From IMG/VR virus record IMGVR_UViG_3300020477_001143, positions 1 through 26,011 of that record: DNA of 26,011 bases. One strand, written 5' to 3'. Below the pieces are notes generated by a model, which saw nothing but the letters and a program-made list of their open reading frames with translations, did not search any database and was not told the DNA's origin. Within the stretch, counting starts at the first letter, position 1; the number at the start of each line of letters is the position of its first letter. The DNA comes from a virus. The position numbers and the translations under genes were made by a program. Below, piece after piece: positions 1,628 to 19,100 of this stretch.

Positions 1628-1890
1628 GAGATGAGATTATGATGAATCCCGAAAATGGAAATCGTTTGTTATTTGGTCAACGAGTAGAAGAAAAGTATTT
1701 TCGTAAAGGAGTTCAAAAACTGATGTATAATAAACACTATACATCATATCATTCTATACTATCTCAGTTGCTATGTTTACAGAGAACGGACCCGTTGTAT
1801 AAGGGAATAAAAATCGGAAACATCATGGTAGATAACAATTTAATTTCATTGCATGAACTAGATGCAATACTGGAGGATGAAGAAAAATGA
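1624..1890 (+). CDS. hypothetical protein coupled to the PorB gene
   Basis: 88 residues from the ATG at 1624, chosen because it forms an ATGA overlap with the previous stop and has AAGGAA five bases upstream. A longer frame starts at 1591, but that start lies deep inside the previous gene and has no ribosome-binding site. The C-terminal part (GIKIGNIMVDNNLISLHELDAILEDEE) looks like the short helical 'low-level GNILV...LIS..EL' unit seen at the N termini of type II/IV secretion ATPases (MshEN-like). The similarity is weak and may be structural only. Its stop overlaps the oxidoreductase beta start as ATGA, so the two are probably translationally coupled. Confidence 0.65.
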   Translation: MRDEIMMNPENGNRLLFGQRVEEKYFRKGVQKLMYNKHYTSYHSILSQLLCLQRTDPLYKGIKIGNIMVDNNLISLHELDAILEDEEK

Positions 1891-2858
1891 ATAATAGTAA
1901 TATTCAAATATGTGAAGACCTTCTCGACATTATGCCACCTGAATATCAGGACATGGTGGAAAATGCTACATTTAATAAGACAGATGATAGAGGATGGAGG
2001 GATGTTGGTGAGTCAAAAGAATTGATAGAACAACATTCATTATGTGCAGGATGTCCAGAGTCGATTGCATTTAGATATATACTGGCTTCCATTCCCAATC
2101 CCAAAGATACAGTTTTTGTTGGTTCCACCGGTTGTACTTCATTAGTTTTTCCCCATGTAGGTATTCAAAATATACATTCACTTTTTGGAAATCAAAACGC
2201 AATAGCCTCAGGACTTAAACGATCTCTTGCCCATAGATTTCCCGACCGAATAAAAGATGTAGTAGTTCTTGCAGGTGATGGTGCTACTGTTGATATCGGA
2301 TTGGATATGACCATGCAATCCTGGTTTCGTCAGGAGAAGTTTACTACGATTTGTTTCGATAACGAATTATATGCTAATACAGGTGGACAAGAATCTGGAC
2401 TCATGCAAAAAAGTTTTGTTGCAAAGATGGCTCCCAAGGGAAAACAATTCGATAAAGTAAACTTACCACAAATTGCATTTGAATCAGGATGTCAATATGT
2501 TGTTATTATGACAGCCTCGAAACCAAACAGAGTAGAACAAGCAATCAAGAATGCTATCTATGTTGCAAGAGAGATTGGTCCTACATACATTCAAATCTAT
2601 ACTCCGTGTATCCTTGAGATTGGAAAACAATCTATGGAAGGATTGGATGAGATGAAAGATTCTGAAACGATTGGTGGAAGGTTTGGATACAAGGAGTGGG
2701 TAACAGATGAAGCAAAAGCATTGATTGAAATGAAAAGTCAGGAAGCAAAAGAAAGAAAGAAGTTAGCTAAACAAAAAGCAAAGGAGAAAGCAAATGGAAT
2801 GGCAGCATCCAAACCAAATAAAGAGGTCAGCACCGGTTCCCTCGCATCAGTCACCTGA
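1887..2858 (+). CDS. porB: 2-oxoacid (pyruvate):ferredoxin oxidoreductase, beta subunit
   Basis: 323 residues. This is the subunit that binds thiamine pyrophosphate and the proximal [4Fe-4S] cluster of POR/KOR enzymes, which interconvert 2-oxoacid + CoA and acyl-CoA + CO2 using ferredoxin. The four expected cluster cysteines are all present: C53 and C56 (LCAGCPE), C83 (GSTGC) and C241 (YTPC). The thiamine/Mg motif is GDGATVDIG (130-138) followed by N159 and ELYANTGGQ (160-168). Family beta subunits usually end near residue 290. Here a Lys/Glu-rich tail (about 275-323) is added, and its last 65 bases overlap the next gene in another frame. The start is an ATGA overlap. The alpha subunit is 2.7 kb downstream. 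Gamma and delta subunits are not in the window. Whether the substrate is pyruvate or another 2-oxoacid cannot be settled by eye. Nothing looks broken. Confidence 0.93.
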   Translation: MNNSNIQICEDLLDIMPPEYQDMVENATFNKTDDRGWRDVGESKELIEQHSLCAGCPESIAFRYILASIPNPKDTVFVGSTGCTSLVFPHVGIQNIHSLFGNQNAIASGLKRSLAHRFPDRIKDVVVLAGDGATVDIGLDMTMQSWFRQEKFTTICFDNELYANTGGQESGLMQKSFVAKMAPKGKQFDKVNLPQIAFESGCQYVVIMTASKPNRVEQAIKNAIYVAREIGPTYIQIYTPCILEIGKQSMEGLDEMKDSETIGGRFGYKEWVTDEAKALIEMKSQEAKERKKLAKQKAKEKANGMAASKPNKEVSTGSLASVT

Positions 2859-2979
2859 AGCCGAAAAACCAAAACAGATTATTCGTGCTTTGGTTGTCGT
2901 TGGTATCATGGCTGGTATTTACTGGGTAGCAACTCGTATCTTACCAACGCTGGTAGGATTGCATTTAGTTTCTAAATAG
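2794..2979 (+). CDS. small single-pass membrane protein overlapping porB
   Basis: 61 residues, unrecognised. It starts inside the 3' end of the beta-subunit gene in a different frame, with AAGGAG at 2781-2786 seven bases upstream. The first 30 residues are polar and proline-containing. One hydrophobic segment follows (about 31-48, ALVVVGIMAGIYWVATRI), then LPTLVGLHLVSK. The strong ribosome-binding site and the membrane pattern argue it is real. It leads directly into a ribosome-binding site (AGGAGA at 2978-2983) for the Cys-rich peptide. Function unknown. It could anchor or modulate something, but nothing in the sequence says what. Confidence 0.65.
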   Translation: MEWQHPNQIKRSAPVPSHQSPEAEKPKQIIRALVVVGIMAGIYWVATRILPTLVGLHLVSK

Positions 2980-2990
2980 GAGAAAAAAAT

Positions 2991-3068
2991 ATGTGTACGA
3001 ATCCAACGTGTGAATGTAGTCCCTGTACTTGTGAAAATTGTCAGGCGGGATGTTCTTGCTGTGGATAA
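2991..3068 (+). CDS. 25-residue Cys-rich, metallothionein-like peptide
   Basis: A 25-codon frame starting MCTNPTCEC with nine cysteines (positions 2, 7, 9, 12, 14, 17, 21, 23, 24), that is 36% Cys in C-x-C, C-x2-C and CC spacings, and almost no hydrophobic residues. AGGAGA lies at 2978-2983, seven bases before the ATG. The spacing is typical of metallothioneins, which bind Zn, Cd or Cu through thiolate clusters. It could also hold or donate iron for a cluster. Its stop overlaps the GTG start of the IscA-like gene by eight bases, which suggests coupled translation. Well below usual gene-finder cut-offs, so probably unannotated in relatives. Confidence 0.72.
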   Translation: MCTNPTCECSPCTCENCQAGCSCCG

Positions 3069-3384
3069 TAAGTTTATCACAATAACTGATGAAGCACATA
3101 AAGCTATCAAAGGTTTTGTTTTAGATGATGAAGTGTTGCGCGTAGGTGTAAAGGGTGGTGGATGTTCTGGTTTGTCTTATCTTATCCAGACCGATACACT
3201 TACAGATGATAATGATTCCATCCTTGATTTCGAGGAGTTCAAAGTTGTTATAGATAATAAGAGTATGATTTATATTAAGGGAATGGAACTTGACTATACC
3301 ACGGGTCTTGAGGGAAAGGGATTTCAATTTAAGAATCCCAATGCGTCAAGTACTTGTGGATGTGGTGAAAGTTTTTCTATGTAA
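3061..3384 (+). CDS. iscA: A-type Fe-S cluster carrier (IscA/HesB family)
   Basis: 107 residues from the GTG at 3061. A-type carriers receive Fe-S clusters and pass them to apo-enzymes such as [4Fe-4S] proteins. The three ligand cysteines are present: C35 in GGGCSGLSY, and C99 and C101 in the C-terminal CGCGESF. An upstream ATG (3010) would add 17 residues but lies inside the Cys-rich peptide gene. The GTG gives exactly the usual length and the cysteine numbering of E. coli IscA (35, 99, 101), so I prefer it. The gene overlaps the Cys-rich peptide by eight bases. IscA-like genes are known in T4-like marine phages. Here the neighbour PorB needs a [4Fe-4S] cluster, so cluster loading of that enzyme is a plausible job (inference). 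Confidence 0.92.
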   Translation: MDNKFITITDEAHKAIKGFVLDDEVLRVGVKGGGCSGLSYLIQTDTLTDDNDSILDFEEFKVVIDNKSMIYIKGMELDYTTGLEGKGFQFKNPNASSTCGCGESFSM

Positions 3385-3404: not shown

Positions 3405-3644
3405 ATGGCACGACCTAAAAAAGCTAGTACTAAAAAGAAGTCAACATCAACCAGAAAGAAAGTCACCATACCAAAAAAGGAGCCAATGATGATGGATATG
3501 TTAAAGGGTAAGAAGACTTATATTACGGCACTTGTTATAGGTGTTATTGCCGCAGCTGAGTCTCTTGGTTATGTGATTCCTGAATTTGTGTACCCAATGT
3601 TGGGTGCATTGGGATTAGGAACACTTCGCCACGGGATGAAATAA
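3405..3644 (+). CDS. holin-like small basic membrane protein
   Basis: 79 residues. The first 26 are extremely Lys/Arg/Ser/Thr-rich (MARPKKASTKKKSTSTRKK). Then comes a hydrophobic segment TYITALVIGVIAAAESLGYVI (about 38-58) and a second moderately hydrophobic one, PEFVYPMLGALGLGTLRHGMK (59-79). This resembles short phage membrane proteins of the form 'KKTYI...GVI...LRH' that are often annotated as holins or unknown. The ribosome-binding site AAGGAG lies at about 3391-3396. No lysis enzyme is in the window, so a holin role is only a possibility. Confidence 0.7.
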   Translation: MARPKKASTKKKSTSTRKKVTIPKKEPMMMDMLKGKKTYITALVIGVIAAAESLGYVIPEFVYPMLGALGLGTLRHGMK

Positions 3645-3650
3645 AAACAA

Positions 3651-3950
3651 ATGGCAAAAAGGCAATGGGAGATTAAAACTGTTCATGGATTTACGGAACA
3701 TGGTTCTCTTGACGAGGGACTTGGATTCACGAGGACAGGTGATGTGAAAAAAATATTAAAGGAGTATAAAGAGAATGAGGCAAATAATCTTCACACCGAG
3801 AATTATCTCCTGCTCGCAAAAGCATTTGGTACTTCTCAAGAAGTAAAGAAGATTGAAGCTATTCTAAAGAAACAAGGTTATACTTCAAATGAAGATATGG
3901 ATTGGATGTATGAGCATATCAATCCTTATTGTAAAAAGTTAATTAAATAA
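3651..3950 (+). CDS. hypothetical protein
   Basis: 99 residues, soluble, unrecognised. The sequence starts MAKRQWEIKTVHGFTEHGS and continues with charged helical segments (KKILKEYKENEANNLHTENYLLLAKAF), ending in a Trp/Tyr/Cys-containing tail (DWMYEHINPYCKKLIK). The ribosome-binding site is poor. It starts six bases after the previous stop and its TAA overlaps the next ATG by one base, so coupling to its neighbours is likely. Confidence 0.65.
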   Translation: MAKRQWEIKTVHGFTEHGSLDEGLGFTRTGDVKKILKEYKENEANNLHTENYLLLAKAFGTSQEVKKIEAILKKQGYTSNEDMDWMYEHINPYCKKLIK

Positions 3951-4489
3951 TGAAATCGTTTAAAACATTTGTAACAGAAGAAGGCGAGGGAAGAATCTAT
4001 CTGGATATGGATGGAGTTCTTGCAGATTTTATTGATGGGGTTTTAGTCCATTTTAAGAAAGACAGAAAAGACCGCACCATCACCAAAGAATTTTCAGACA
4101 TGGCCACCGAGATTCAAGATAAAAGTCGGGCAGGAGAATTGCCTGGGTTCTGGGAGAACCTGTCCGTTCTTTCTGATGGTAAGAAACTCTATCGTTATGT
4201 AGAAACTCTAAACAAAGACATATGGGTTCTTTCTTCCTGTTCGAGAGACATGAAATATTGTTTCCGAGAAAAACACAAATGGATTAAAAAACATTTCCCA
4301 AAGATTGCTTCTGAGAAAGTAATCTTAGTTGCTTCAGCAAAACATAAATCACGTTATGCTAAACCCGGTGACATTCTCATTGATGATTTTAAAAATAATA
4401 TCAAAAGATGGGAACAGGCAGGTGGAACCGGGATATGGCATAACGGGGATGCGAGTAAGACTATGAGAGAATTAAAGAAAGTATTGTAA
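3950..4489 (+). CDS. 5'(3')-deoxyribonucleotidase-like HAD phosphatase
   Basis: 179 residues. It belongs to the NT5C group of haloacid dehalogenase-like hydrolases, which remove phosphate from deoxynucleoside monophosphates. HAD motif I is DMDGVLADF (residues 19-27), with D19 the expected nucleophile and D21 the acid/base. WVLSSCS provides motif II. A downstream lysine (in SAKHKSRYAKPGD) and DILIDDF supply motifs III and IV. The GIWHNG tail end also fits the family. The protein begins MKSFKTFVTEE before the domain, a variant of the capsid-targeting-like tag, with a possible gp21-type cleavage after VTE. This start overlaps the previous stop by one base. Likely role: nucleotide turnover. If packaged, it would act right after injection (inference). 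Confidence 0.85.
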   Translation: MKSFKTFVTEEGEGRIYLDMDGVLADFIDGVLVHFKKDRKDRTITKEFSDMATEIQDKSRAGELPGFWENLSVLSDGKKLYRYVETLNKDIWVLSSCSRDMKYCFREKHKWIKKHFPKIASEKVILVASAKHKSRYAKPGDILIDDFKNNIKRWEQAGGTGIWHNGDASKTMRELKKVL

Positions 4490-5574: not shown

Positions 5575-6858
5575 ATGACAACAGCAGTAGCAATTGAAAC
5601 TCCAAAGCCTAAGGTTAAAAATAAAGCAGCACAAACTAGAAAATCTTACGATAGAATTATTCGGTCTACCCATGAAAAATTAGAAACCAAGAATAAGATG
5701 GGTCAGACCCACACAGACGCGAATGATTTTTTCTATCGTGCAGAAAGAACTAAAAAGTTTTTTACAGGTAGTGAAGTAATACAGGCGGCAATTAAAGTAG
5801 CACATTGTGATATGTCTATTGCATATCCTATTACACCTCAATCTGAAGCAGCCTCATTAATTGGTGAGTTGTATGCAGAGGGATATGTTGGAGAATATTT
5901 TCGAGGTGAAAGTGAGTTTGCGGTAATGAGTCAATGTGCTGGTGCGGCATTTGGTGGCTCAAGAGTATTTACTACTACTGCTGGTCCTGGTACAATGAGA
6001 GCAATGGAAAATTTTCCAATGTGGGCAGGTTCACGTTTACCAATTCAAGTATGTGTGACTTGTCGAGGAATTAATTCTCCTCTTAGTATTCAACCTGATA
6101 CATTGGAAATCCATTATCTATTAGAAACGGGAATGTTGATATGGCATGCTGAAACAGCACAAGACCTGTATGATTTTATTCTTAAAGGATTTATTGTTGC
6201 AGAGCAACCAGATGTTCATGTTCCTATAGCAGTATGTTGTGATGGGTTCTTTGTTACTCATACAAAAGATACTGTTGAATTAGTTCCAGATGATTTGTGT
6301 TTGACTCCGTATGACCCATATCAAAATCCTCAACCTGTTATGGATATGGAATCAGCTCCAGTAAGAATGATGCGAGACCCGTTTGTTATGAAATCGAATT
6401 ATATTCATTATGCAACTCAAGCATCCTGGCAACAAGAAATTCATGCAGCTGTAGAACGATCAAGAAAACATACCATTCCTTTATTGGATGGATTGATTGA
6501 TGTTGAAAATCCTGGTAGAGATATTATGATTGCTTGTTCTGGTACTGCTGTATCTCAATCAAGAGAAGCAATTCGTTTATTGGAATTGGAGGGAATTGAG
6601 GTTGGACTAGTAAAGATTAAAACAATTAGACCATTTCCATTTAAAGAAGTCAGAGCAGCACTGGAACATGCTAAAAACATTTTTGTTCCAGAGTTTAATA
6701 TTAAGGGATGGTTAGCACGAGAAATTTGTGCTATACTTCCAAATAGTGATAATGTCTATAAAGGACCTCATGTTGCTGGTGGAATGACAATGCCATCCGA
6801 GGTTATTGTAGATGAAATGAAAAAAGTTTTGGGAATGAAAGTAGAGGCCCGATTATAA
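5575..6858 (+). CDS. porA: 2-oxoacid (pyruvate):ferredoxin oxidoreductase, alpha subunit
   Basis: 427 residues. This is the alpha subunit of a multi-subunit POR/KOR enzyme, carrying the substrate-binding transketolase-like domain. The family signature AYPITPQSE is at 83-91, the conserved glutamate region is RGESEFAVMSQ (110-120), and GGSRVFTTTAGPG at 127-139 follows. The C-terminal transketolase-like domain spans about 315-380 (DIMIACSGTAVSQSREAI, then TIRPFP). It lacks the ~200-residue gamma domain that is fused in two-subunit enzymes, so it needs a separate gamma subunit, and none is in the window. About 60 residues precede the domain, with a basic start (PKPKVKNKAAQTRKSYDR). The substrate loop reads INSPLSIQPDTLEIH rather than the common pyruvate-enzyme form, so substrate choice is open. 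Full length and intact. Confidence 0.93.
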   Translation: MTTAVAIETPKPKVKNKAAQTRKSYDRIIRSTHEKLETKNKMGQTHTDANDFFYRAERTKKFFTGSEVIQAAIKVAHCDMSIAYPITPQSEAASLIGELYAEGYVGEYFRGESEFAVMSQCAGAAFGGSRVFTTTAGPGTMRAMENFPMWAGSRLPIQVCVTCRGINSPLSIQPDTLEIHYLLETGMLIWHAETAQDLYDFILKGFIVAEQPDVHVPIAVCCDGFFVTHTKDTVELVPDDLCLTPYDPYQNPQPVMDMESAPVRMMRDPFVMKSNYIHYATQASWQQEIHAAVERSRKHTIPLLDGLIDVENPGRDIMIACSGTAVSQSREAIRLLELEGIEVGLVKIKTIRPFPFKEVRAALEHAKNIFVPEFNIKGWLAREICAILPNSDNVYKGPHVAGGMTMPSEVIVDEMKKVLGMKVEARL

Positions 6859-7084: not shown

Positions 7085-7512
7085 TGCCATCCTCAGTTGT
7101 CAAGTCATTTGCAAAGAGAACAGGTAAGTCTGTTGACCATGTTGAGAAAATCTGGAATGCTATTCGTGATTCTTTGATTTCAAATGGACACAAAGAAACA
7201 GATGATAATTTCTATCCAATGCTGGTAGGTGGATTAAAGAAGGCACTCAAATTAAAGGAGTCTACAATGTTGACGTATCAACAATTTATGGAAAAGATCA
7301 AGAAGGTAGTTCGTGGTGGGAAAGTAGTGAAGAAAGTAGATTGTCCACCTGGTAAGAAAGCAAAGGATGGAAAGTGTGTAGTTCAAACTGGTCAAGAAAA
7401 GATGGCACGAATAAAAGCTGCAAAGAAAGCAGCAAAGAGTAGGAAGGGTAAGTCTCAAGCAGGTGCAATTAGAAAGCGTAAACTTTCAATGAAGAAGTCG
7501 AAGAAACTCTAA
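7084..7512 (+). CDS. basic protein: small helical domain plus tag-like basic tail
   Basis: 142 residues in two parts. Residues 1-58 (SSVVKSFAKRTGKSVDHVEKIW ... NFYPMLVGGLKKAL) form a small helical domain I associate with marine T4-like phages. From residue 62 the sequence restarts with MLTYQQFMEKIKK, a capsid-targeting-like tag, then DCPPGKKAKDGKC and a strongly basic Ala/Lys tail ending SMKKSKKL. At that internal Met (ATG 7267) there is a perfect AAGGAG at 7255-7260 six bases upstream, so an 81-residue shorter product is likely made as well. The basic tail suggests DNA packing or binding. The TAA overlaps the next ATG by one base. Confidence 0.75.
   Translation: MPSSVVKSFAKRTGKSVDHVEKIWNAIRDSLISNGHKETDDNFYPMLVGGLKKALKLKESTMLTYQQFMEKIKKVVRGGKVVKKVDCPPGKKAKDGKCVVQTGQEKMARIKAAKKAAKSRKGKSQAGAIRKRKLSMKKSKKL
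7255..7260 (+). promoter_or_regulatory. internal Shine-Dalgarno for a nested in-frame start
   Basis: AAGGAG lies six bases before the in-frame ATG at 7267, inside the gene at 7084-7512. The nested product (7267-7512, 81 residues) would begin with the MLTYQQF tag, as the other tagged proteins do. Spacing and sequence equal the best gene starts of this window. Confidence 0.6.
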
Positions 7513-9191
7513 TGAAGAAAAAGAATTTAAAACAATTCCAAGAAGAAATTTCTTGTTTGCTTAAGGAAGCATTTAACTTCAGACCGGCAAATGAAAAAGA
7601 AATTAAAGCCAATCCTGCTATTCCAAAAGATTGGCAACCTTTTATAATTGACATATTTAAAATGTTTGGTGAAACTGTTGTTTTTCAGACAACAGGAAAA
7701 TTAAATAAAGAAGGTGAAATTTCTGGTGATGCACTTGCTGGCAAAATAAGACCTGATGAATGGTTTAAAATAAAAACTGGTAAAAGAAAAATTGGTAGTG
7801 GATTTAAGATAGAGTTTAATCCTAAAGGTACAAGTATGAAGTTGACCAAACAATATGGAGAGTGGGATTATTCAATTAATTTAGTTGCTGGTTTAGGTTC
7901 TGGTGTTAAAGGCCCAACAGGTGCTCAATGGGAGAGTTTAATAACACATCAATATAATGTTTTAAATAAAGAACCAGATGCAGATAAAAATGCAGCTAAA
8001 ATTGCAAATGAATTTTATCCAATTTACCATGAACCAGCACTTGCCTTAGCTAAAGCATTTAAAAAAGAATTAGGAATGTCAACAACAATGACACAGTTCG
8101 GTGCATCAACGGGGAAATTAAGTGCGTTATGGAAAAAACATGGTGGAACAAATGCTACACCAAAAACTGATATGTTTACAGATAATTATAATATTTCTTT
8201 GAAAAAAGCTGGTGGTTCGCAATATGCTTCTGGTACAGCAGGTGAAACACTTTCAACATTTCATGCAGCTTTAGAATATATGGGTGCAGATGGAAAGTCA
8301 AAAGCAAAAATAAAATCTATAATGAAAAGTATTAAAGATAATTTTGAGAAGATACAACTTGACATGGCAAAGGGTGAACTTGCAGATTTGGATGCTGGAA
8401 AAACAGTTGGGGGTAATATTAAAAAAGGTAGTAAAATATACAAGGGTGATAAAGCTTGGAGTAAAAAAGATCAAGATGAATTTAAAAAATTCAAAGATAC
8501 AGAGGAATTTCATAAAAGATTAAACGATCAAATTAAAAAAGATTTATCAGTTGAAAAAGAGCCTGAATTTAGGAAATGGTTTTTATTTGAAGCGATGTCT
8601 GGATTTAAAAAATTTGATGGTTCAAGATCAACATCTAGTATATGTGTTACTTTTGATCCAGATGACGGTACTGTTTCTACCATTGATGTTACAGAAGATG
8701 GTTCTTCTAAGAGTTTAACTGGTGATACACCAACTTTATCCAAAGAACTTATTAAGAAATCTGGACAAATAAAACTTTATTCTGCATTTAAATCGTCAGG
8801 AACAAGACCTTATTCTGTATTACGAGCTCATAAAGAACAAACAGGTGATATGTTGGTTGATTGTACTTTAGATAGTCTTATTAGAGATCAAATAATGTTA
8901 GATGAAGATGTTAAAAGTTTAGGATTGACTTTAACTGAAGAAATCATTGAGCTAGACGAAATTGCACTTTTAAAATCAGTTTATAGCAAAATGAAAAATA
9001 TTGGAAAAGATGCTAAAAAATGGATTGGTGGTTTCTTTAAAAAACTTATGGCACAAGTTAGTAAAGTATTAGCTAAAATTGAGAAATTAGGAAAAAGAAT
9101 GTTTGAAGGTCTATTTCAATTTTTAGGAATTGAAATAACAGATGCTTCTGTTTCAGTTCCTAGTGATATATCAGATTTTGTTAATAAATAA
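7512..9191 (+). CDS. large conserved phage protein, possible PD-(D/E)xK-like nuclease
   Basis: 559 residues. The N terminus (MKKKNLKQFQEEISCLLKEAF) resembles the capsid-targeting tag and contains LLKE|A, a good match to the T4 gp21 protease site (L/I)xE. The middle has WDYSINLVAGLGSGVKGPTGAQWES (about 115-140) and TPKTDMFTDNYNISLKKAGGSQ (217-238). In the latter, D220 and K231 of ISLKK could be the core of a PD-(D/E)xK nuclease fold, with Ser where Glu/Asp is usual. I recall the KTD...ISLKK.GGSQ pattern from marine phage proteins of unknown function. The C terminus (480-559) is helical with amphipathic Lys-rich segments. Its start overlaps the previous stop by one base. Enzymatic role uncertain. 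The gene itself is secure. Confidence 0.8.
   Translation: MKKKNLKQFQEEISCLLKEAFNFRPANEKEIKANPAIPKDWQPFIIDIFKMFGETVVFQTTGKLNKEGEISGDALAGKIRPDEWFKIKTGKRKIGSGFKIEFNPKGTSMKLTKQYGEWDYSINLVAGLGSGVKGPTGAQWESLITHQYNVLNKEPDADKNAAKIANEFYPIYHEPALALAKAFKKELGMSTTMTQFGASTGKLSALWKKHGGTNATPKTDMFTDNYNISLKKAGGSQYASGTAGETLSTFHAALEYMGADGKSKAKIKSIMKSIKDNFEKIQLDMAKGELADLDAGKTVGGNIKKGSKIYKGDKAWSKKDQDEFKKFKDTEEFHKRLNDQIKKDLSVEKEPEFRKWFLFEAMSGFKKFDGSRSTSSICVTFDPDDGTVSTIDVTEDGSSKSLTGDTPTLSKELIKKSGQIKLYSAFKSSGTRPYSVLRAHKEQTGDMLVDCTLDSLIRDQIMLDEDVKSLGLTLTEEIIELDEIALLKSVYSKMKNIGKDAKKWIGGFFKKLMAQVSKVLAKIEKLGKRMFEGLFQFLGIEITDASVSVPSDISDFVNK
9183..9190 (+). promoter_or_regulatory. possible late promoter box (AATAAATA)
   Basis: AATAAATA is one base from TATAAATA. 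It overlaps the stop of the previous gene and lies 18 bases before the ATG at 9209, with AGAGGA between them. The same variant occurs at 23013 in a similar place. Confidence 0.35.
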
Positions 9192-9546: not shown

Positions 9547-9957
9547 ATGGCACTATCAAATATAGCACGAGTAAGAACAAGAAAATATTCAGATATAGAT
9601 TTGGATTTTACACCACATCCTGTTACTAAGGATCTTGTTGTTAAGACAAATGAAGAAGCAGTCAAACGAGCTGTTCGTAATTTGATTTCAACAAATGCGT
9701 TTGAACGTCCATTTCATTCTGATATAGGAGGAGATGTTCGAGCCTTATTATTTGAGAATGTCGATATATTTACTGCTTCAACACTTGAAACACGAATAAG
9801 ATTTCAATTAGAAAAATATGAACCTAGAGTAGAGACACTTAATATTAATGTTTTTCCAGATATTGATGCAAATGGATTTAATGTCACATTAGAATTTTTA
9901 ATCAAGAATCTTCCGAATCCAGTAACCGTAGAAGTTTTCTTAGAGAAATTAAGGTAA
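9547..9957 (+). CDS. baseplate wedge protein gp25-like
   Basis: 136 residues. T4 gp25 is the lysozyme-fold wedge protein that links to gp6 and gp53 at the inner baseplate and helps start sheath polymerisation. Family signs are the N-terminal DIDLDFTPHPVTKDLVVKTNEEAVKRAVRNLI, the central NAFERPFHSDIGGDVRALLFE, and the strictly conserved EPR motif in KYEPRVETL (about residues 100-108). Length is normal for the family (T4: 132). The gp6 gene follows after four bases, the standard T4-like order. Confidence 0.95.
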   Translation: MALSNIARVRTRKYSDIDLDFTPHPVTKDLVVKTNEEAVKRAVRNLISTNAFERPFHSDIGGDVRALLFENVDIFTASTLETRIRFQLEKYEPRVETLNINVFPDIDANGFNVTLEFLIKNLPNPVTVEVFLEKLR

Positions 9958-9961
9958 CGAT

Positions 9962-11755
9962 ATGCCAAAGCTATCAGCGACAGAATTAGATTTTGACCAA
10001 ATAAAAACAAACCTAAAAAGTTTTTTATCGACCCAATCTCAATTTCAAGATTATGATTTTGAAGGGTCGAGTATGGCAATCATACTTGACTTGCTTGCTT
10101 ACAATACACACTATATGGCATTGCAAGCAAACTTAACTGCAAATGAAATGTTTCTTGATAGTGCAACTCTAAGAGAATCTATTGTATCACTTGCAAAACA
10201 TTTAAACTATACACCTACATCAGCAACAGCTCCTCTTGCAAAAATTAATCTTACACTTGTACCTTCTGGAAATCCAAACTCTCTTAATATAGATAGAGGA
10301 ACAAAATTCACGACAACAGTTGATAATGTTAATTATACATTTATCAATGTTGAAACATATACTATTATTCCAGATTTGCAAGGAGTCTATTCGATTAATG
10401 ATGTTGAAATCAAAGAAGGAAAGTTATTAGATTTTTCTTATACAAAAGATTCAACAGATTCACAACAACGATTTCTTATTCCAAATAAAAATGTAGATAC
10501 ATCAACGATTGCTGTCACCGTTCAAACTTCATCGACTGATACGACTACTGAGGTATGGAATAAAGCTACTGAGACAACATTAATTGCAGGAACTGATAAA
10601 GTATATTGGATACAAGAAGTTGAAGACGAAAAATGGGAAGTATATTTTGGTGATGGTACAGTTGGTAAAGCATTAACTGATGGTAATATTGTTAAGATTG
10701 ATTATCTTGTTACAAAAGGAACATTAGCTAATCTTGCATCTACTTTTAAACAAGCAACAACAGTTGCAGGATTAACTTCTGATAAGGTAACAATTACAAC
10801 TTCACAGGTTGCTTCTAATGGTGCTTTAATTCAGTCAAAAGAAGATGTAGCATTTCTCGCACCAAAATTATATTCGACACAAGGTCGAGCTGTTACTACA
10901 ACTGATTATAAAAATATTTTATTAAAAGAACGAACTGATATTGATTCGATTACAATATGGGGTGGAGAAGATGCAGAACCTAAAGCATTTGGTACTGTTA
11001 ATATTGCAATCAAACCAAATAATGCTTCTATATATTCTACAGCTATCAAAGAAGATATTGTCAATCAACTTTTGAAGAAACGAGGAGTGGTATCAATTAC
11101 TCCAGTTATTGTTGATCCAATATACACTTATATGAATATTACAACAGCAGTAAATTATGACCCTGTTGTATTAACAACAACAAGTAGTGAATTACAATCT
11201 TCAGTTGAAACAACAGTTAAAAATTATTTTGTAAATACATTAAATAAATTTGATACTAAGTTTAGACATTCTGTAATGAGTGCAAATATTGATGCTACTG
11301 ATAAAGCAATTAGAAATAACAGTACCACAGTTACAATGGAGATGGAAGCAAATCCATTAATATATTCAACGAATTATACTCATACACTTGCTTTTAATAA
11401 TGCTATCGAAGAAGGTAGTCTTTCATCTTTAAGTTTTACTGATAAGGATGGAAATACTGCATTACTTGATGATAGTTCTGGTGCAATCCGTTCTTATAAA
11501 TTAGTAGGAACATCAAAAGTTTATATTAATTCTAATGTTGGAACTATTGATTATACAACAGGTAAAGTAGTTCTTACAAATTTCTTTGCATCAGCATTAG
11601 GAAATAATGAAGCAGGAACAGTTATGACTAAACTAATTGTAAGGGCTAAACCATCTGGTTTAGATTTATTACCAGTACGAGAACAATTATTAACATTAGA
11701 TACGACACGATACGGTTCTTTAATTATAACTATACTTGCTGAGTCAACAGAATAA
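9962..11755 (+). CDS. baseplate wedge protein gp6-like (baseplate J family)
   Basis: 597 residues. gp6 forms the ring joining baseplate wedges. The N-terminal region DFDQIKTNLKSFLSTQSQFQDYDFEGSSMAIILDLLAYNTHYMALQANLTANEMFLDSA is a hallmark of phage gp6/gpJ proteins. It is followed by a beta-rich middle with VYFGDGTVGKAL (about 223-234) and a C-terminal part with RTDIDSITIWGGEDAEP. Length is slightly below T4 gp6 (660). Placed directly after gp25. Its TAA overlaps the next ATG by one base. Confidence 0.93.
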   Translation: MPKLSATELDFDQIKTNLKSFLSTQSQFQDYDFEGSSMAIILDLLAYNTHYMALQANLTANEMFLDSATLRESIVSLAKHLNYTPTSATAPLAKINLTLVPSGNPNSLNIDRGTKFTTTVDNVNYTFINVETYTIIPDLQGVYSINDVEIKEGKLLDFSYTKDSTDSQQRFLIPNKNVDTSTIAVTVQTSSTDTTTEVWNKATETTLIAGTDKVYWIQEVEDEKWEVYFGDGTVGKALTDGNIVKIDYLVTKGTLANLASTFKQATTVAGLTSDKVTITTSQVASNGALIQSKEDVAFLAPKLYSTQGRAVTTTDYKNILLKERTDIDSITIWGGEDAEPKAFGTVNIAIKPNNASIYSTAIKEDIVNQLLKKRGVVSITPVIVDPIYTYMNITTAVNYDPVVLTTTSSELQSSVETTVKNYFVNTLNKFDTKFRHSVMSANIDATDKAIRNNSTTVTMEMEANPLIYSTNYTHTLAFNNAIEEGSLSSLSFTDKDGNTALLDDSSGAIRSYKLVGTSKVYINSNVGTIDYTTGKVVLTNFFASALGNNEAGTVMTKLIVRAKPSGLDLLPVREQLLTLDTTRYGSLIITILAESTE

Positions 11756-14739
11756 TGGCACATCCAGAAAATACAAAATATCTTTCTGTCCACGTTCCAT
11801 CACAACTCCCTGAGTTTACTCGGGAAGACCATGCTACGTTTGTTTCTTTTATGGAGGCATATTTTGAATTTCTTGACCAACAAGGTGGCGCGGCCGAGAT
11901 TATTAATGCTTTATCAGATTATGCAAATATAGACAAGACTGTTGATTCTTTTGTTGACCATTTTAAAGAACAATTTTTACATGATATTCCAAATAAAGTT
12001 GTAACAGATAAAGCTTTTCTTGTAAAAAATATTAGAGAATTTTATCGTTCTCGAGGTTCTGAAAAATCATTTCAATTTCTTTTCCGAACAATGTTTCAGG
12101 AAGAAATTACGATTGACCATCCTAAAGATAATATATTAAAACCCTCTGATGGTAATTGGGTTGTTGATAAAATTATTAAAGTAAAAGAATCTGCAGGATT
12201 ATCTAAATTTGCTGGAAAAGAAATTCAAGGTAGTAATTCTAACGCAACTGCTGTTGTTGAAAATATTGTAACAATTCGAGAAAATAAATTTGATGTAACT
12301 GAAATGTTGATTTCAAATATTGCAGGAACATTTGAAATTGGAGAAACGATAACAGCAACGGATAATGATGGTAGCACACTTTCTACTGTTCTTGGTGGAA
12401 TGATAGGATCAGTTACAGTTGATATACCTGGAAGTAATTATTCTGTAGGACAAGTATTGGATGTTACTGGAGGTGGTGGACAATTTGGTGAAGGAAGATT
12501 ATTGCTAGAAGATACAAGTGGAATATTATTAAAAGAAGATGAGACACATATTGTAGCCGAAGAAGATTTCGGTGTTAATATGAAAGTCTCTGTTAAAGAA
12601 CTACAAGGTGGAACAATAGATTCAGTTAAAATTGTTGATGGTGGAACAGGATATAGTAAAGGAGATTATCTAACTTTAAACAATACAAATGCACTTCAAA
12701 ATGATGGTAATTCAGGTGCGTTAAGAGTATTAGAAGTTGCTGGTAGATTAAATGGAATTGCAATAGCAAATAAAGGAGAAAATTATTTAAATCCTCCTTT
12801 AGTTTCATTTACAGGTGGTGGTGGAACGGGAGCCCAGGCAATTACTAGTTTGGAAGGTGGTCCTATTTCAACGTGCTCTATATCTTATGGTGGGACAGGT
12901 TATGATGTTAATGATATTATTACATTTCATGGTGGTGGAGGATCTAGTGGACTTGGAAAAGTTTCTTCAGTAAATGCAAAAGAACAATTTATATTGGAAG
13001 ATGGAACATATTTATTTTTAGAAGATGGTGATTTACTAGCAACAGAGGCTAGTGAAGGTATTACGGGAATTACTATAACGAATGGTGGAAGTAATTATTT
13101 AACTGAACCTGAAACTACAATTACAAAAGGAACAACTAATATTCTTTTAGAAGATGGTGAAGATATTTTATTAGAGATGGATCAAGTTGAACCTTATGTA
13201 TCTGGAACAACGAGTAAATTAAATAAAGAACATTCTGGTGGAACGGGAGCAATACTTGTTCCTAATGGATGGGGGAGAGTTGGTAGGATTTATTTTGATC
13301 CTCCAAGTTTTGATGGAAAGAATTTTTCTACTGTACCAACTATTACTTTGACTAGAGTTGGAAATTCAGGGTCAGGTGCAACAGCTACAGCCACAGTTGC
13401 TGGTACTACTGGGGATGGAAAAATTTTAGAAGTGGAAATTGAAAATGCAGGTAAAGATTATATTGCTATTCCTAGTGTTGATGCAACAGGTAAAGGAAAT
13501 GGTAATGCTTCTATTACATTAGGTTCAACAACTATCGGTGGTATTCGATTACTTAGTATAGGTCGTCCTGGATTTAATGTTACCAAACCACCTATCATAG
13601 ATGCTTCTGGGTTTGGTGATGGTAATTCAAAAATATCATCAACTGCAGCTGCACAATTTACAGTTGGTGATGGACATTGGGAAGGAACTAAAAGTTTTGT
13701 TTCACATGACCAATATATTCAAGATAGTAATTTTTATCAGATATATTCTTATGTTATTAATCATGGTGGACAGACAGCAGAGTTCTGGAGAGATACAGTA
13801 AAACGAGTATTACATCCTGCAGGTTTTAATTTATTTTCACAGATTGATGTTTTAAGTGAGATGGGATTACCACTCACTACAATGTCAATACGAGCACCAG
13901 AAAGATTTCACGACCTTCCAGGAGAACCAGAAGGTGTCGCAGAAGATGTCGGATTAATTCTTGTTCTCATGTTCAATCTTGCAAATACGTTTGATACTTC
14001 TTCTACAATAGATTTCTCTACAGGTGAACCAAACACGACAATAATATTTGTTCCGGGTGCAGGAACATTTCAAATTGGTGAAACAATTACATTTTCAAAT
14101 GGAACAACAGTAACAATAGTAGATATTACAGAAGATGGACTTGTTATTGATGATAGTACATTATCAGGTCCTTTACCAGATGAAGGAACATCTGTTACAG
14201 GAAATACATCTGGTGCTTCTGGAACTATTGCAGAATTTAAGAAACCATCTTCTCTTATTACAGCCAAACGTAGACTTGGGCCATCATGGAGAACAATCGA
14301 CTATCAAAAATTCTTTACTACTGCAGGATTTTCTAATAAAGAACGATTTCCAATGGAAATTGAAAATGATGGTACAACAAGGATGGAGTTAGAAGGTCAA
14401 TATCGCAATCCATATGAATTGAATCTAGAGCTTGTATCTCAAAGTGCTACTCCACAATGGCCGACAACACATACTTATAGATTAACAGAAAAGATTTTAT
14501 TAGAAGATGGTAGTTATATTTTATCAGAAGTACATCAACCGGGTGATTTAATATTGTTTGAAGATGGAGATATTCCAGTAATGGAACATCAGGGAGATGC
14601 TAGTGGAAGTTATACTATTAATGATTTTAAAGATATTGTTCTTGCAAAAATCATTGATGATAGTGGACGAACTAGAAATAATACGAGAAAACGTATGACA
14701 TCTGAAAGTTATATAACTTTTCATCCTTATTCTCCGTAA
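11755..14739 (+). CDS. baseplate structural protein in the gp7 position
   Basis: 994 residues, close to T4 gp7 (1032) and in the gp7 place between gp6 and gp8. The N-terminal ~130 residues (PSQLPEFTREDHATFVSFMEAYFEFLDQ, then NIREFYRSRGSEKSFQFLFRTMF) match the large structural protein found here in T4-like cyanophages. From about residue 185 it is built of repeats: GTFEIGETIT (191) and GTFQIGETITF (770); Gly-rich 'GGTGY...PP.ITFTGGGG.GA' units (about 300-640); and LLEDG/FLEDG units (near 248, 422, 468 and 920). The C terminus returns to ordinary sequence (FHPYSP). True homology to T4 gp7 is likely by position but cannot be shown by eye. A late promoter box follows. Confidence 0.8.
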   Translation: MAHPENTKYLSVHVPSQLPEFTREDHATFVSFMEAYFEFLDQQGGAAEIINALSDYANIDKTVDSFVDHFKEQFLHDIPNKVVTDKAFLVKNIREFYRSRGSEKSFQFLFRTMFQEEITIDHPKDNILKPSDGNWVVDKIIKVKESAGLSKFAGKEIQGSNSNATAVVENIVTIRENKFDVTEMLISNIAGTFEIGETITATDNDGSTLSTVLGGMIGSVTVDIPGSNYSVGQVLDVTGGGGQFGEGRLLLEDTSGILLKEDETHIVAEEDFGVNMKVSVKELQGGTIDSVKIVDGGTGYSKGDYLTLNNTNALQNDGNSGALRVLEVAGRLNGIAIANKGENYLNPPLVSFTGGGGTGAQAITSLEGGPISTCSISYGGTGYDVNDIITFHGGGGSSGLGKVSSVNAKEQFILEDGTYLFLEDGDLLATEASEGITGITITNGGSNYLTEPETTITKGTTNILLEDGEDILLEMDQVEPYVSGTTSKLNKEHSGGTGAILVPNGWGRVGRIYFDPPSFDGKNFSTVPTITLTRVGNSGSGATATATVAGTTGDGKILEVEIENAGKDYIAIPSVDATGKGNGNASITLGSTTIGGIRLLSIGRPGFNVTKPPIIDASGFGDGNSKISSTAAAQFTVGDGHWEGTKSFVSHDQYIQDSNFYQIYSYVINHGGQTAEFWRDTVKRVLHPAGFNLFSQIDVLSEMGLPLTTMSIRAPERFHDLPGEPEGVAEDVGLILVLMFNLANTFDTSSTIDFSTGEPNTTIIFVPGAGTFQIGETITFSNGTTVTIVDITEDGLVIDDSTLSGPLPDEGTSVTGNTSGASGTIAEFKKPSSLITAKRRLGPSWRTIDYQKFFTTAGFSNKERFPMEIENDGTTRMELEGQYRNPYELNLELVSQSATPQWPTTHTYRLTEKILLEDGSYILSEVHQPGDLILFEDGDIPVMEHQGDASGSYTINDFKDIVLAKIIDDSGRTRNNTRKRMTSESYITFHPYSP

Positions 14740-14755
14740 TATGTTAAACTGCTTG

Positions 14756-14763
14756 TATAAATA
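14756..14763 (+). promoter_or_regulatory. T4-type late promoter box
   Basis: TATAAATA continuing ATATAG lies in the 59-base gap before the gp8-like gene, 35 bases before its ATG. It shares the 13-base core TATAAATAATATA with the box at 6927. This is the only clear break inside the baseplate operon. Confidence 0.65.
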
Positions 14764-14798
14764 ATATAGAAACTTATTAATTGTAAAGGAATTAGACA

Positions 14799-16154
14799 AT
14801 GCCTGGAATCATTAACAATCACTTTCGTAAGTATAATGCAGGGAATTTTATCGAAGCATTCGGTGAAACTAATCCCGATGTTATTTACCTATTTATTGGT
14901 AAAAATGATGCGTGGAGTGGAACTTCAGAGGGAGAATATGCTGGAACAGCATCGTCAGATACCGCTGCACCAACCCCGATAGATACTGTTGTTTCTGATT
15001 TCAAGCATCACGATAATATGCTCGCACTCAAAAAAGTTGCAGCTGGAGATATTAAACGAGTTATTAAACGATTAGATTGGACTACTGGTACAGTCTATGA
15101 TGAGTGGGATCATACTGTTGACGATTTTTATGATAAGAATTATTTTGTAATGACTGATAATTTTAATGTATATAAGTGTATTAGTAATAATCGTGGAGTT
15201 GCTTCAACTGTAAAACCAACTGGACAATCAACTTCCATATCAGAAATTACAGAACTTTCTGATGGATATAGGTGGAAATTTATGTATGAAGTTCCATCTG
15301 CTGATGTTGCAAAGTTTGTTACAAAAAACTGGATTCCGATTCAAACTCTTACTTCAGATAATTCGACAGCACAATGGACAGTCCAACAGGCTGCAGTAGA
15401 TGGTTCAATCGACCATATTGATGTAACAGCTGTTGGTAGTGGATATTCAGATGCTCCAACGATTACATTTACAGGTGGTGGTGGTTCTGGTGCAACAGGA
15501 ACAGCAGTAATTAATTCAAGTGGAGTTATTACTGCTATTACAATCAATAATGGTGGAGCAAGTTATACAACTCCTCCAACTATTGCAATCTCGGGTGGTG
15601 GTGGTTCTGGTGCAACAGCGTCATGTACTGTTTCTGCCGGAGCTGTAAATCAAATTACAGTTGTTGCTGGTGGAACTGGATATTCAACAGCACCAGTAAT
15701 TACTATTACTGGTGATGGTTCAAATGCACAAGCAAATGTTATTTTATCGTCTGGAACGATTGATAAAATTCGTATGACTAATATTGGAAGTGGATATAGA
15801 AACGCAACAGTAACAGTTACAGGTGGTGGTGGTTCTGGTGCAACAGGTGTAGCACGAATTGGTCCTAAAGGTGGTCACGGAAAAGATGCTGTAAACGAAC
15901 TTGGTGGATTTTATGTTATGTGTAATATAAAATTGGATGGAACTGAAGGTGGTGACTTACCAGTAGGAGATGACTTTAGAAAAATAGGATTATTATTGAA
16001 TCCTACAGTTGGTGGGTCTTTGGCAAATGCAACTACATATACAAAAGCAGAAATTGATGATAATAGTGGAGAAGTATTATATGTTGAATATCGAGCACCT
16101 ATTGTTCGTGCAACAGACCAAACAGAAGATATTAAATTAGTTGCTGAATTTTAA
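14799..16154 (+). CDS. baseplate wedge protein gp8-like with inserted Gly-rich repeats
   Basis: 451 residues against 334 for T4 gp8. The N-terminal 190 residues match gp8: NHFRKYNAGNFIEAF, then NYFVMTDNFNVYKCISNNRGVAS (about 115-137) and DGYRWKFMYEVPSADVAKFVTKNW (about 153-176). The extra length is a block at about 205-345 made of four ~39-residue Gly-rich repeats of the form G-x-G-Y-x-x-x-P-T-I-T-F-T-G-G-G-G-S-G-A-T. The tyrosines fall at 216, 256, 295 and 333. The C terminus (GGFYVMCNIKLDGTEGGDLPVGDDFRKIGLL) is gp8-like again. A ribosome-binding site AAAGGAA lies near 14785. The insert probably forms a surface-exposed beta structure. Confidence 0.9.
   Translation: MPGIINNHFRKYNAGNFIEAFGETNPDVIYLFIGKNDAWSGTSEGEYAGTASSDTAAPTPIDTVVSDFKHHDNMLALKKVAAGDIKRVIKRLDWTTGTVYDEWDHTVDDFYDKNYFVMTDNFNVYKCISNNRGVASTVKPTGQSTSISEITELSDGYRWKFMYEVPSADVAKFVTKNWIPIQTLTSDNSTAQWTVQQAAVDGSIDHIDVTAVGSGYSDAPTITFTGGGGSGATGTAVINSSGVITAITINNGGASYTTPPTIAISGGGGSGATASCTVSAGAVNQITVVAGGTGYSTAPVITITGDGSNAQANVILSSGTIDKIRMTNIGSGYRNATVTVTGGGGSGATGVARIGPKGGHGKDAVNELGGFYVMCNIKLDGTEGGDLPVGDDFRKIGLLLNPTVGGSLANATTYTKAEIDDNSGEVLYVEYRAPIVRATDQTEDIKLVAEF
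15474..15846 (+). repeat. near-identical DNA repeats encoding Gly-rich units
   Basis: The string GGTGGTGGTGGTTCTGGTGC followed by AACAG occurs three times, near 15474, 15594 and 15822, inside the gp8-like gene, spaced by about 120 and 228 bases. A fourth, diverged unit (TGATGGTTCAAATGC) sits between the last two. Identity at the DNA level points to recent duplication or recombination rather than protein-level convergence. Confidence 0.75.
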
Positions 16155-16170
16155 TTAAAGGGAATCCATA

Positions 16171-19100
16171 ATGGCAGATGTCAATTTAAATGTGAATCCA
16201 TATTATGATGATTATAGTGAAACAAAGGATTATCAGAAAGTTCTTTTTAAACCTAGTGTAGCTGTTCAAGCTAGAGAAGTAACTCAGCTGCAGACAATAT
16301 TAGAAAAGCAAGTTGAAAGACATGGAGAACATATCTTTCGTGAAGGTAGTATTGTTTCTGGAATGGAACATACTATTCAAAAAGGAATTTATTTTGCTTT
16401 AATTAAAGATACTGACCACAACAGTACTGCTGTTACGATTGCTGATTGGAAAGGAAAAACTGTTCGTGGTGAAGAATCTGGTGTTGAAGGAATTATTCAT
16501 ACTGTTGCTGATGGAACTGAAGCTACTACAATTAGTGATTCTACTGGGCCGAAAACAATATATGTAAATGTAACAAGAGCTGGAACAGATAATATATCAA
16601 GACACTTTTTTTCTTCTGAAAATTTAGTTGATACAAGTGATTCAAGTAAAAAACTTAGAGTTTTTGATAATGTAAATGGTACGATAGAATGGATGGGTTT
16701 TGGAACGCAGCTTACAATAGATGACGGAATTATTTTTGCAAAGGGAAAATTTTTAATTGTTTCAAAACAAACAATAATTGTTGCTCGTTATGACCATATG
16801 GCAACTGCAAAAGTTGGTTATAAAGTTACTGGAACTTTTATTGATTCTGCAGCTGATTCCACTTTACTTGATCCTGCTCAAGGGGCCCCAAATTTTAATG
16901 CACCCGGTGCTGATAGATTACAATATAATCTAACACTTACGACAAGAAGTCTTACCTCTACTGATTTAGAAGATTTTGTAGAATTATTTAAAATAGAAGA
17001 TGGAGTAGTTACAAAGTCTGCTTCTGTTCCTCAATATTCTGAATTAAGAAAAGAATTTGCTCGAAGAACTTTTGATGAATCAGGAGATTATACGGTCCAA
17101 CCTTTTCCAATTAGAATTAGAGAACATTTAAATGATGGAACAAATGGTGGTAGATATACTTTAGCTAATGGAGGTGACACAAATCAATTAGCAATAGGTA
17201 TTGAACCTGGTACGGCATATGTTCAAGGATTTAAACATGAAACGGGTGTAACTGAATATTTAAATTTAACTAAAGCAGTAGATACTGAAGAAATCGAAAA
17301 CCAAAAAGTTTCTGCAGCGTATGGTAATTATGTTTTATGTACTGAGGTAGTTGGTTCATTTCCTTTTGATACTCTCTCAGAAGTTAGTTTAAGAAACGCA
17401 GCTGCTAAAGCAATTACAAATACAACGTATGGTGCTGCGGCATTGCCCGGAAGTGAAATTGGTAAGGCACGAGTTCGATCTATAATTCATTCATCAGGTA
17501 CACCCGGTGCAGCTGATTGTGAATATAAATTATATTTATTTGATATAAGAATGACATCAGCTGGAAAAGATTTTTCTGATGTTCGGTGTGTTACTAATCT
17601 TTCATCTTCTAGTGATAAATATTTAGCTGATGTTAGTTTAACTGCTGCTGGTACGAATAGTAATGTTTTATATGAAGATGGCGACCAACTCTTAACTGAA
17701 GATGGTTTATTTAAATTAGTACATGAAGATTCTATTTCAGGTGAAAAAGCAGTCTTAAAAGAAACAGGAAAATTTCATAAATTAGTTTATACACTTCCAC
17801 AAAATAATATTAAAACAATTCGTGATAGTAGTGGTGATGTTGAAACATCTTACAAGTTTAGAAAAGAATTTGATGTTACATTTTCTGGTACTGGAGTAGC
17901 AACTGTTGCTACTGGTAATAGTACAGAAACATTTCCATTTTCAGTTGGTGAATTAAGTGAGACTAATAGACGCGTAAACTTTATGGTTGTTCCAACCCAA
18001 ACAAAAACTCCATTTAATACTGGCCAACCAATAGATTTTACTACTGCGGGTTCTAATGGTGCAAGAAGTATTAATATAACGACTACTACTTCTGCTACTT
18101 TAAATTGTAATGAAACATTATCTGGTGGTATGACAGCAAAAGTTATTGTTACATTAACCCGGGCCAATGCAAAAGAAGCAACTAAAAAATTAGTCAAAAA
18201 TCAACAAGTAGTTATTGCACCGACAACACATACTGCAACAACAGTCGGGCCTTGGGGTCTTGGACGAAGTGATTGTTTTATACTTAATAAAGTTTATATG
18301 TCACCGAGCACATCAACTTTACCTACATCAGCTCATACAGACGTAACATCACATTTTGAATTAGATACAGGACAAAGAGATAATTTTTATGACCACGGAC
18401 AATTAAAAAAACTTGCAAGTTCTTCTCTGTCAATTACAGGTCAACTCTTAATTGATTTTCATTATTTCACCCATGATACTTCTCAAGGTATTGGATATTT
18501 TTCTGTTGACTCTTATCCAGTTGATGATACGGGAGTAACTGCTAATACAATTAAAACATGGGAATTGCCTTTCTTTAATTCTACTACTCAAGGTCAACAA
18601 TATGATTTAAGAGATACTATTGATTGTAGACCAAGACGAACAGATACGAATACGGTAACAAACCCTGCAGCTGGTTCTACATTTGGATTTGATGTAGCAA
18701 CAGCAGGTGCTCATATGATGCACCCCAATGAATCAATCAATATGGATTTGAATTTTTATCTTCCAAGAAAAGATAAAATTGTTATAAACAAAGAAGGAAA
18801 TTTTAGTATTGTTTTAGGAACAGCAAGATTTCCTATTGCATTTGCACCGCAAGATAATTCAGAAGCATTGACACTTGGAGTAATTAAAATGCCTCCATAT
18901 CCTTCTTTACCACCTGATCTTGCAAGAAAACATAAACGACCTGGTGTTCAAATCCAAACAATAAATTCACAACGATATACTATGAAAGATATTGGACAAC
19001 TTGAACAACGTATTAATAGAATGGAATATTATACAGCTTTATCTTTATTAGAAAAAGATACTGCTGAATTGCAAATTACAAATCAACAAGGTCTTGATAG

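Follow-up and report, generated by a model that had tools for sequence, protein, structure and literature searches.

Gene content of the locus

The window, that is, the whole stretch of DNA analyzed, is a 26-kb virus fragment with the following features.

1887..2858, plus strand: porB, beta subunit of pyruvate:ferredoxin oxidoreductase (POR; TPP and [4Fe-4S]), 323 aa (profile, PDB sequence, tree, and Foldseek)
2794..2979, plus strand: one-pass membrane peptide, 61 aa, start inside porB; relatives not found
2991..3068, plus strand: 25-aa peptide with nine Cys, possible metal binder; relatives not found
3061..3384, plus strand: IscA/SufA/ErpA-like A-type Fe-S carrier, GTG start (Pfam, PHROG, NCBIfam, and tree)
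3405..3644, plus strand: one-pass membrane protein, 79 aa, no function assigned
3950..4489, plus strand: NT5C, 5'(3')-deoxyribonucleotidase (profile matches; downstream of IscA in contig L006, too)
5575..6858, plus strand: porA, alpha subunit of POR, 427 aa (POR_N and tree)
9547..16154, plus strand: T4-like baseplate wedge genes (phrog_261, 219, 17744, and 438)

A first-pass annotation had described the first four genes as a metal and Fe-S cassette, and all four ORFs were confirmed in that order and at those positions. The membrane peptide begins 65 bases inside porB and is preceded by AAGGAG, the Cys peptide (MCTNPTCECSPCTCENCQAGCSCCG) has nine Cys and a TAGGAG ribosome site, and IscA, from its GTG start, shares 8 bases with the stop end of the Cys-peptide gene; ribosome sites are plausible for porB and both peptides. 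Matches to Pfam, to NCBIfam, and to PDB sequences bore out the reading of porB as an Fe-S enzyme subunit and of IscA as an A-type carrier. Missing from that gene list was the alpha subunit porA at 5575-6858, with six small ORFs between it and IscA.

PorB matched TPP_enzyme_C (PF02775; E 9e-18) and the beta models of 2-oxoacid:ferredoxin oxidoreductase (OFOR; NCBIfam NF008819, 8e-31). The cluster ligands Cys53, Cys56, Cys83, and Cys241, which align with the Cys of solved OFOR betas (PDB sequence match), and the TPP motif GDG(130-132)...N159 are invariant across 18 relatives. The AlphaFold model was moderate (pLDDT 69), and the top 10 Foldseek matches obtained with it were all OFOR betas (E 1e-11 to 1e-7). 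PorB has the TPP-binding domain with GDG...N, the four proximal [4Fe-4S] Cys, and the fold of an OFOR beta. PorA matched POR_N (Pfam, 1.8e-60) and corresponds to the alpha subunit of the five-subunit POR holoenzyme.

IscA matched Fe-S_biosyn (Pfam, 7.6e-20), phrog_17776 (5.6e-31), and TIGR00049 (3e-33; 114 bits against a cut-off of 58.8), and its score lay under the equivalog cut-offs of IscA, SufA, and ErpA in NCBIfam. With the C35/C99/C101 motif present and PDB sequence matches in support, it has the C-x(n)-CGC ligands and family score of an A-type carrier.

The Cys peptide had no match in Pfam, PHROG, NCBIfam, or PDB and lacks the family homology of a metallothionein; it may still bind metal. 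Of 150 versions of the window generated by an order-2 Markov model, only one contained an ATG-started peptide of 20-35 aa with at least eight Cys. Neither phage tblastn nor a Cys-density scan of relatives recovered a relative, and the three matches from a degenerate DNA scan of viral contigs were judged chance. High-scoring single-pass membrane ORFs also start at 571, 744, and 3405 in the window, so the membrane peptide cannot be taken as a specific mark of such a cassette. Both peptides are unique to the window, with no counterpart in relatives. In L198, an unrelated 185-kb T4-like contig, a 22-aa peptide with nine Cys (MSNSNNCKCCKCCTCECENCCD; L198:9608-9672) is encoded some 330 bases 5' of IscA, which IscU follows; the peptide is like the window's peptide in kind only.

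The phage type was read from the baseplate wedge genes from 9.5 kb onward (PHROG matches), by which the window is classed as part of a T4-like myovirus. The T4 late promoter motif TATAAATA occurred four times on the plus strand, about chance for the base composition, and was therefore not used as evidence. A 559-aa protein without a PHROG match is encoded between porA and the baseplate genes (7512-9191), and a 1991-aa ORF (16171-22146) lies 3' of the latter.

Assignment to the host POR operon

Nitrospinota are marine nitrite oxidizers whose CO2 fixation runs through the reductive TCA cycle, to which POR belongs. When one genome was scanned for each bacterial and archaeal species, the closest PorB relatives were Nitrospinota (best 81-83%; 83% to Nitrospinia bacterium OFTM166, L027), followed by Nitrospira (~74%), and the PorB tree placed the window copy within Nitrospinota. 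PorA was 82% identical to a Nitrospina homologue and sister to L027 with support 99/99. These identities of 82-83% to Nitrospinota POR indicate that the T4-like phage carries POR subunits of its host and probably infects Nitrospina, and a marine Nitrospinota nitrite oxidizer is most likely its host, as read from the captured genes only.

Nitrospina genomes carry two operons of the POR or 2-oxoglutarate:ferredoxin oxidoreductase (OGOR) type. Operon 1, in the order delta-like ORF, alpha, beta, gamma, and small Fe-S protein, is the match of the window PorA and PorB. The peptide TPSFFTGSEVIK, reported as a POR-alpha peptide for Nitrospira marina (PMC8115632), was present in operon-1 alphas of Nitrospirota (21 of them) but in no operon-2 alpha, and because of this confinement operon 1 was assigned to POR. 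Operon 2 adjoins sucC-sucD and is therefore most likely OGOR. The assignment agrees with the five-subunit POR and the OGOR without delta reported for N. gracilis (PMC3578206). By the clade of the host POR operon, the window enzyme is predicted to be POR rather than OGOR.

The gamma subunit (PF01558) was absent from the 18 phage records searched, with positive controls, and host-type delta and small Fe-S subunits were not seen beside the phage por genes. Within the 26-kb fragment, the phage thus encodes subunits and not the complete five-subunit enzyme, and the absent subunits must be host-supplied, which contradicts the "self-contained" unit proposed earlier.

Por-bearing relatives and repeated capture

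Nine further IMG/VR contigs of up to 176 kb carried a full or near-full POR-type beta, in two more it was cut off near its start, and nine had an OGOR-type beta only. In L003 and L007, porA-porB-porB2 precedes an Nfu-type carrier and a YfhL-type ferredoxin (Fd) in either order, then IscA, and L006 has the order porB-porB2-Nfu-Fd-IscA; in all three the por genes lie within 3 kb of IscA, the Nfu-type carrier, and the 2[4Fe-4S] ferredoxin. PorB2, a second beta, was 72-77% identical to operon 2 of Nitrospina. The ferredoxin was Nitrospinota-like (74-79%), and Nfu was less close (~45%). In L001 and L002, porB occurs with ferredoxin, aldehyde dehydrogenase, proline dehydrogenase, and more. Large Nitrospira-type phages have a lone beta with no alpha, of POR type in L010 (176 kb; L010:10001-10927) and L011 (89 kb; L011:9989-10900), where it groups with Nitrospira, and of OGOR type in L012 (L012:9959-10858).

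The phage copies need three changes on the PorB tree and are not one clade. The AU test rejected a single clade both when the window was taken together with the seven Nitrospinota-type phages (p 0.006) and when all ten phages were included (p 0.002). As judged from these trees, PorB was captured separately at least three times from Nitrospinota/Nitrospirota, and the OGOR-type beta showed at least four label changes. For PorA the test was borderline (p = 0.068), and a single phage origin was not formally rejected. Pairwise dN/dS among phage copies was about 0.08-0.14, and the genes therefore encode maintained proteins under purifying selection, not decaying cargo. As host-type genes in a viral contig, conserved under selection, they qualify as putative phage auxiliary metabolic genes.

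In INPHARED, PorB gave only weak matches (27-36% identity) to unannotated "Listeria/Enterococcus/Staphylococcus phage" records, which resemble bacterial carry-over, and to faecal records; these matches were rejected. Among the unannotated "phage" records whose OFOR genes look like host DNA carry-over are OR846590, OR848792, and OR850114.

Linkage of IscA and por genes

With at least 586 viral IscA confirmed, viruses have IscA much more often than porB, and porA or porB was near none of the 80 viral IscA loci examined among the matches listed (flank of at most 10 kb a side, often less). IscA was present in 5 of the 18 por-bearing records, four times within about 2.5 kb of porB and once about 59 kb away; many of these records are short, and IscA absence in those is weak evidence. 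Long porB records of 108, 126, and 89 kb had no IscA, and the 176-kb record is the one with IscA at about 59 kb from porB. In the sister phage L141, which lacks any por gene, IscA occupies the same junction as in L003. Comparison of L141:8687-14404 with L003:6836-14088 revealed shared flanks (Tail438 81%, CRP 95%, and PDDEXK 88%) and, at the Tail438/IscA junction, the five-gene block porA-porB-porB2-Fd-Nfu, upstream of IscA, present in L003 and absent in L141.

In the tree, the window IscA groups with those of L003, L006, L007, and L141 in a single clade (99/86) that neighbors Nitrospinota IscA. Since the porB of the window and that of the others were separately captured, IscA most likely came first, with por genes arriving beside it at least twice; by this comparison of trees, IscA is most likely older than the por captures. 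The arrival fits either selection for closeness of Fe-S enzyme and carrier or a shared cargo hotspot.

The first-pass annotation had suggested a self-contained maturation unit. The 0 of 80 loci, the long porB records without IscA, L141, and the separate captures together largely refute self-containment and do not support an evolutionary unit of IscA and porB, IscA being far commoner in phages without porB. What stands of the proposed maturation unit is the packing of an Fe-S subunit with an A-type carrier, joined by Nfu and ferredoxin in L003, L006, and L007.

Proposed role of the captured subunits

The explanation that we consider probable is that of a Nitrospinota T4-like myovirus whose captured POR alpha and beta sustain host POR, with IscA as a general tool. 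The phage carries host-derived genes for the catalytic heart (alpha and beta) of the five-subunit POR of the reductive TCA cycle. During infection, the phage alpha and beta would assemble with the host gamma, delta, and small Fe-S subunits, and beta, holding the oxygen-labile [4Fe-4S] and TPP, would be the most important subunit resupplied. POR activity would thereby be kept or raised once host synthesis stops, as psbA does for D1. IscA, with Nfu and ferredoxin in relatives, would help to load or repair clusters in the POR subunits and other Fe-S proteins, as a general T4-like phage tool and not a dedicated PorB maturation factor.

Nitrite oxidizers run OFORs in air. Most OFORs are oxygen-sensitive via their Fe-S clusters (PMC3578206, PMC8115632), and resupply of beta and cluster carriers would therefore be a sensible benefit, explaining beta-only capture. 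Sequence does not reveal whether the flux runs toward CO2 fixation or toward pyruvate oxidation. Stimulated CO2 fixation was favored for the Lake Baikal viruses (PMC7678222); the amino-acid-degrading genes of L001 and L002 would equally feed oxidative flux.

Such oxidative flux is the basis of a possible but rather doubtful alternative, in which POR/OGOR would oxidize 2-oxoacids from host amino acids and thereby supply phage production with reduced ferredoxin, acyl-CoA, and ATP. The proline dehydrogenase, aldehyde dehydrogenase, and ferredoxin near the por genes of L001 and L002, and the tyrosine phenol-lyase/tryptophanase of L002, a pyruvate maker, fit it, but these amino-acid genes are absent from the window, and OFOR direction depends on the ferredoxin redox state. 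About equally doubtful is that por genes and IscA are neighbors only through a shared variable cargo region, as the block absent or present between kept flanks in L141 and L003 and the IscA-NT5C neighborhood common to the window and L006 with different cargo would suggest; against this, the cargo is coherent in function (POR/OGOR subunits, ferredoxin, and two Fe-S carriers) beyond random expectation. The originally proposed unit, dedicated to maturation, with apo-PorB receiving metal from the Cys peptide and clusters from IscA, is unlikely. It draws on the tight packing with the 8-base overlap, on Nfu, ferredoxin, and IscA near por genes in L003, L006, and L007, and on the separate nine-Cys peptide of L198, yet IscA is far commoner without porB, is missing from or distant in the long porB records, and most likely predates the por captures, and the Cys and membrane peptides are not conserved.

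Extending the preferred reading of POR resupply, we tentatively propose, with somewhat less than even confidence, that phages of nitrite oxidizers, marine and freshwater alike, repeatedly took the betas of both CO2-fixing reductive-TCA enzymes, POR and OGOR (in marine phages alpha, too), cluster carriers, and ferredoxin as a resupply of oxygen-labile subunits, a chemolithoautotrophic counterpart of cyanophage psbA; in a variant, this would be coupled to amino-acid breakdown with the cycle running backwards.

Comparison with known systems

Cyanophage psbA/psbD (mentioned in PMC11360552) provide a phage-supplied labile subunit of a host energy complex, psbA replacing the labile D1. The likeness lies in the mode of working only, a labile subunit of a host energy or carbon complex being supplied by the phage; the genes are not homologous, and the host here is chemolithoautotrophic.

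The only precedent found is that of the Lake Baikal Nitrospirota T4-like viruses VP_1723 and VP_99 (Coutinho et al. 2020; PMC7678222), whose genes were proposed to act on dark carbon fixation via the reductive TCA cycle. Shared with them are the T4-like type, a POR-beta-like OFOR gene, an Fe-S biogenesis protein, and ferredoxin. They are freshwater Nitrospirota viruses with a POR-beta-like gene and an OGOR epsilon subunit, alpha not being named, whereas the genes described here are marine and Nitrospinota-type, with POR alpha and beta in the window, OGOR beta and Nfu in relatives, and separate captures shown by trees. PorA and PorB fall in the POR alpha and beta clades of the five-subunit POR/OGOR of Nitrospina gracilis and Nitrospira (PMC3578206, PMC8115632); in contrast to those hosts, gamma is missing in the 18 phage records and the window has the order porB...porA instead of porA-porB. 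A-type carriers (IscA/SufA/ErpA) and IscU were described in marine T4-like viruses by Nishimura et al. 2017 (PMC5332604), and the window IscA (TIGR00049; phrog_17776) is likewise an IscA-like gene in a T4-like marine phage, but it belongs to a Nitrospina-type phage clade next to Nitrospinota IscA and lies beside porB.

Already known, then, are OFOR, epsilon, Fe-S biogenesis, and ferredoxin genes in the Baikal viruses (PMC7678222) and A-type carriers in marine T4-like viruses (PMC5332604). New are the Nitrospinota branch, the POR alpha and beta pair, OGOR beta, Nfu, the separate captures, and the presence/absence comparison at the IscA junction; no paper on Nitrospinota viruses with carbon-fixation or POR genes was found in the literature searched.

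Nitrospinota are the most abundant known oceanic nitrite oxidizers and fix CO2 in the dark. The findings suggest that viruses draw on carbon metabolism in these main nitrite oxidizers of the dark ocean. That one and the same subunit was captured repeatedly implies a limit on phage production set by POR/OGOR activity in the hosts. With existing Nitrospina cultures and metatranscriptomes, it becomes possible to test whether viruses control carbon fixation in the dark.

Two minor observations concern the neighborhoods in relatives. Genes for a tyrosine phenol-lyase/tryptophanase, a proline dehydrogenase, and a saccharopine-dehydrogenase-like protein lie near the por genes (L002:8262-9623 and L001:13973-15954), and the amino-acid genes of these two contigs possibly form a viral amino-acid catabolic set. 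In L007, purM (AIR synthase; L007:13784-14734) lies beside the IscA region.
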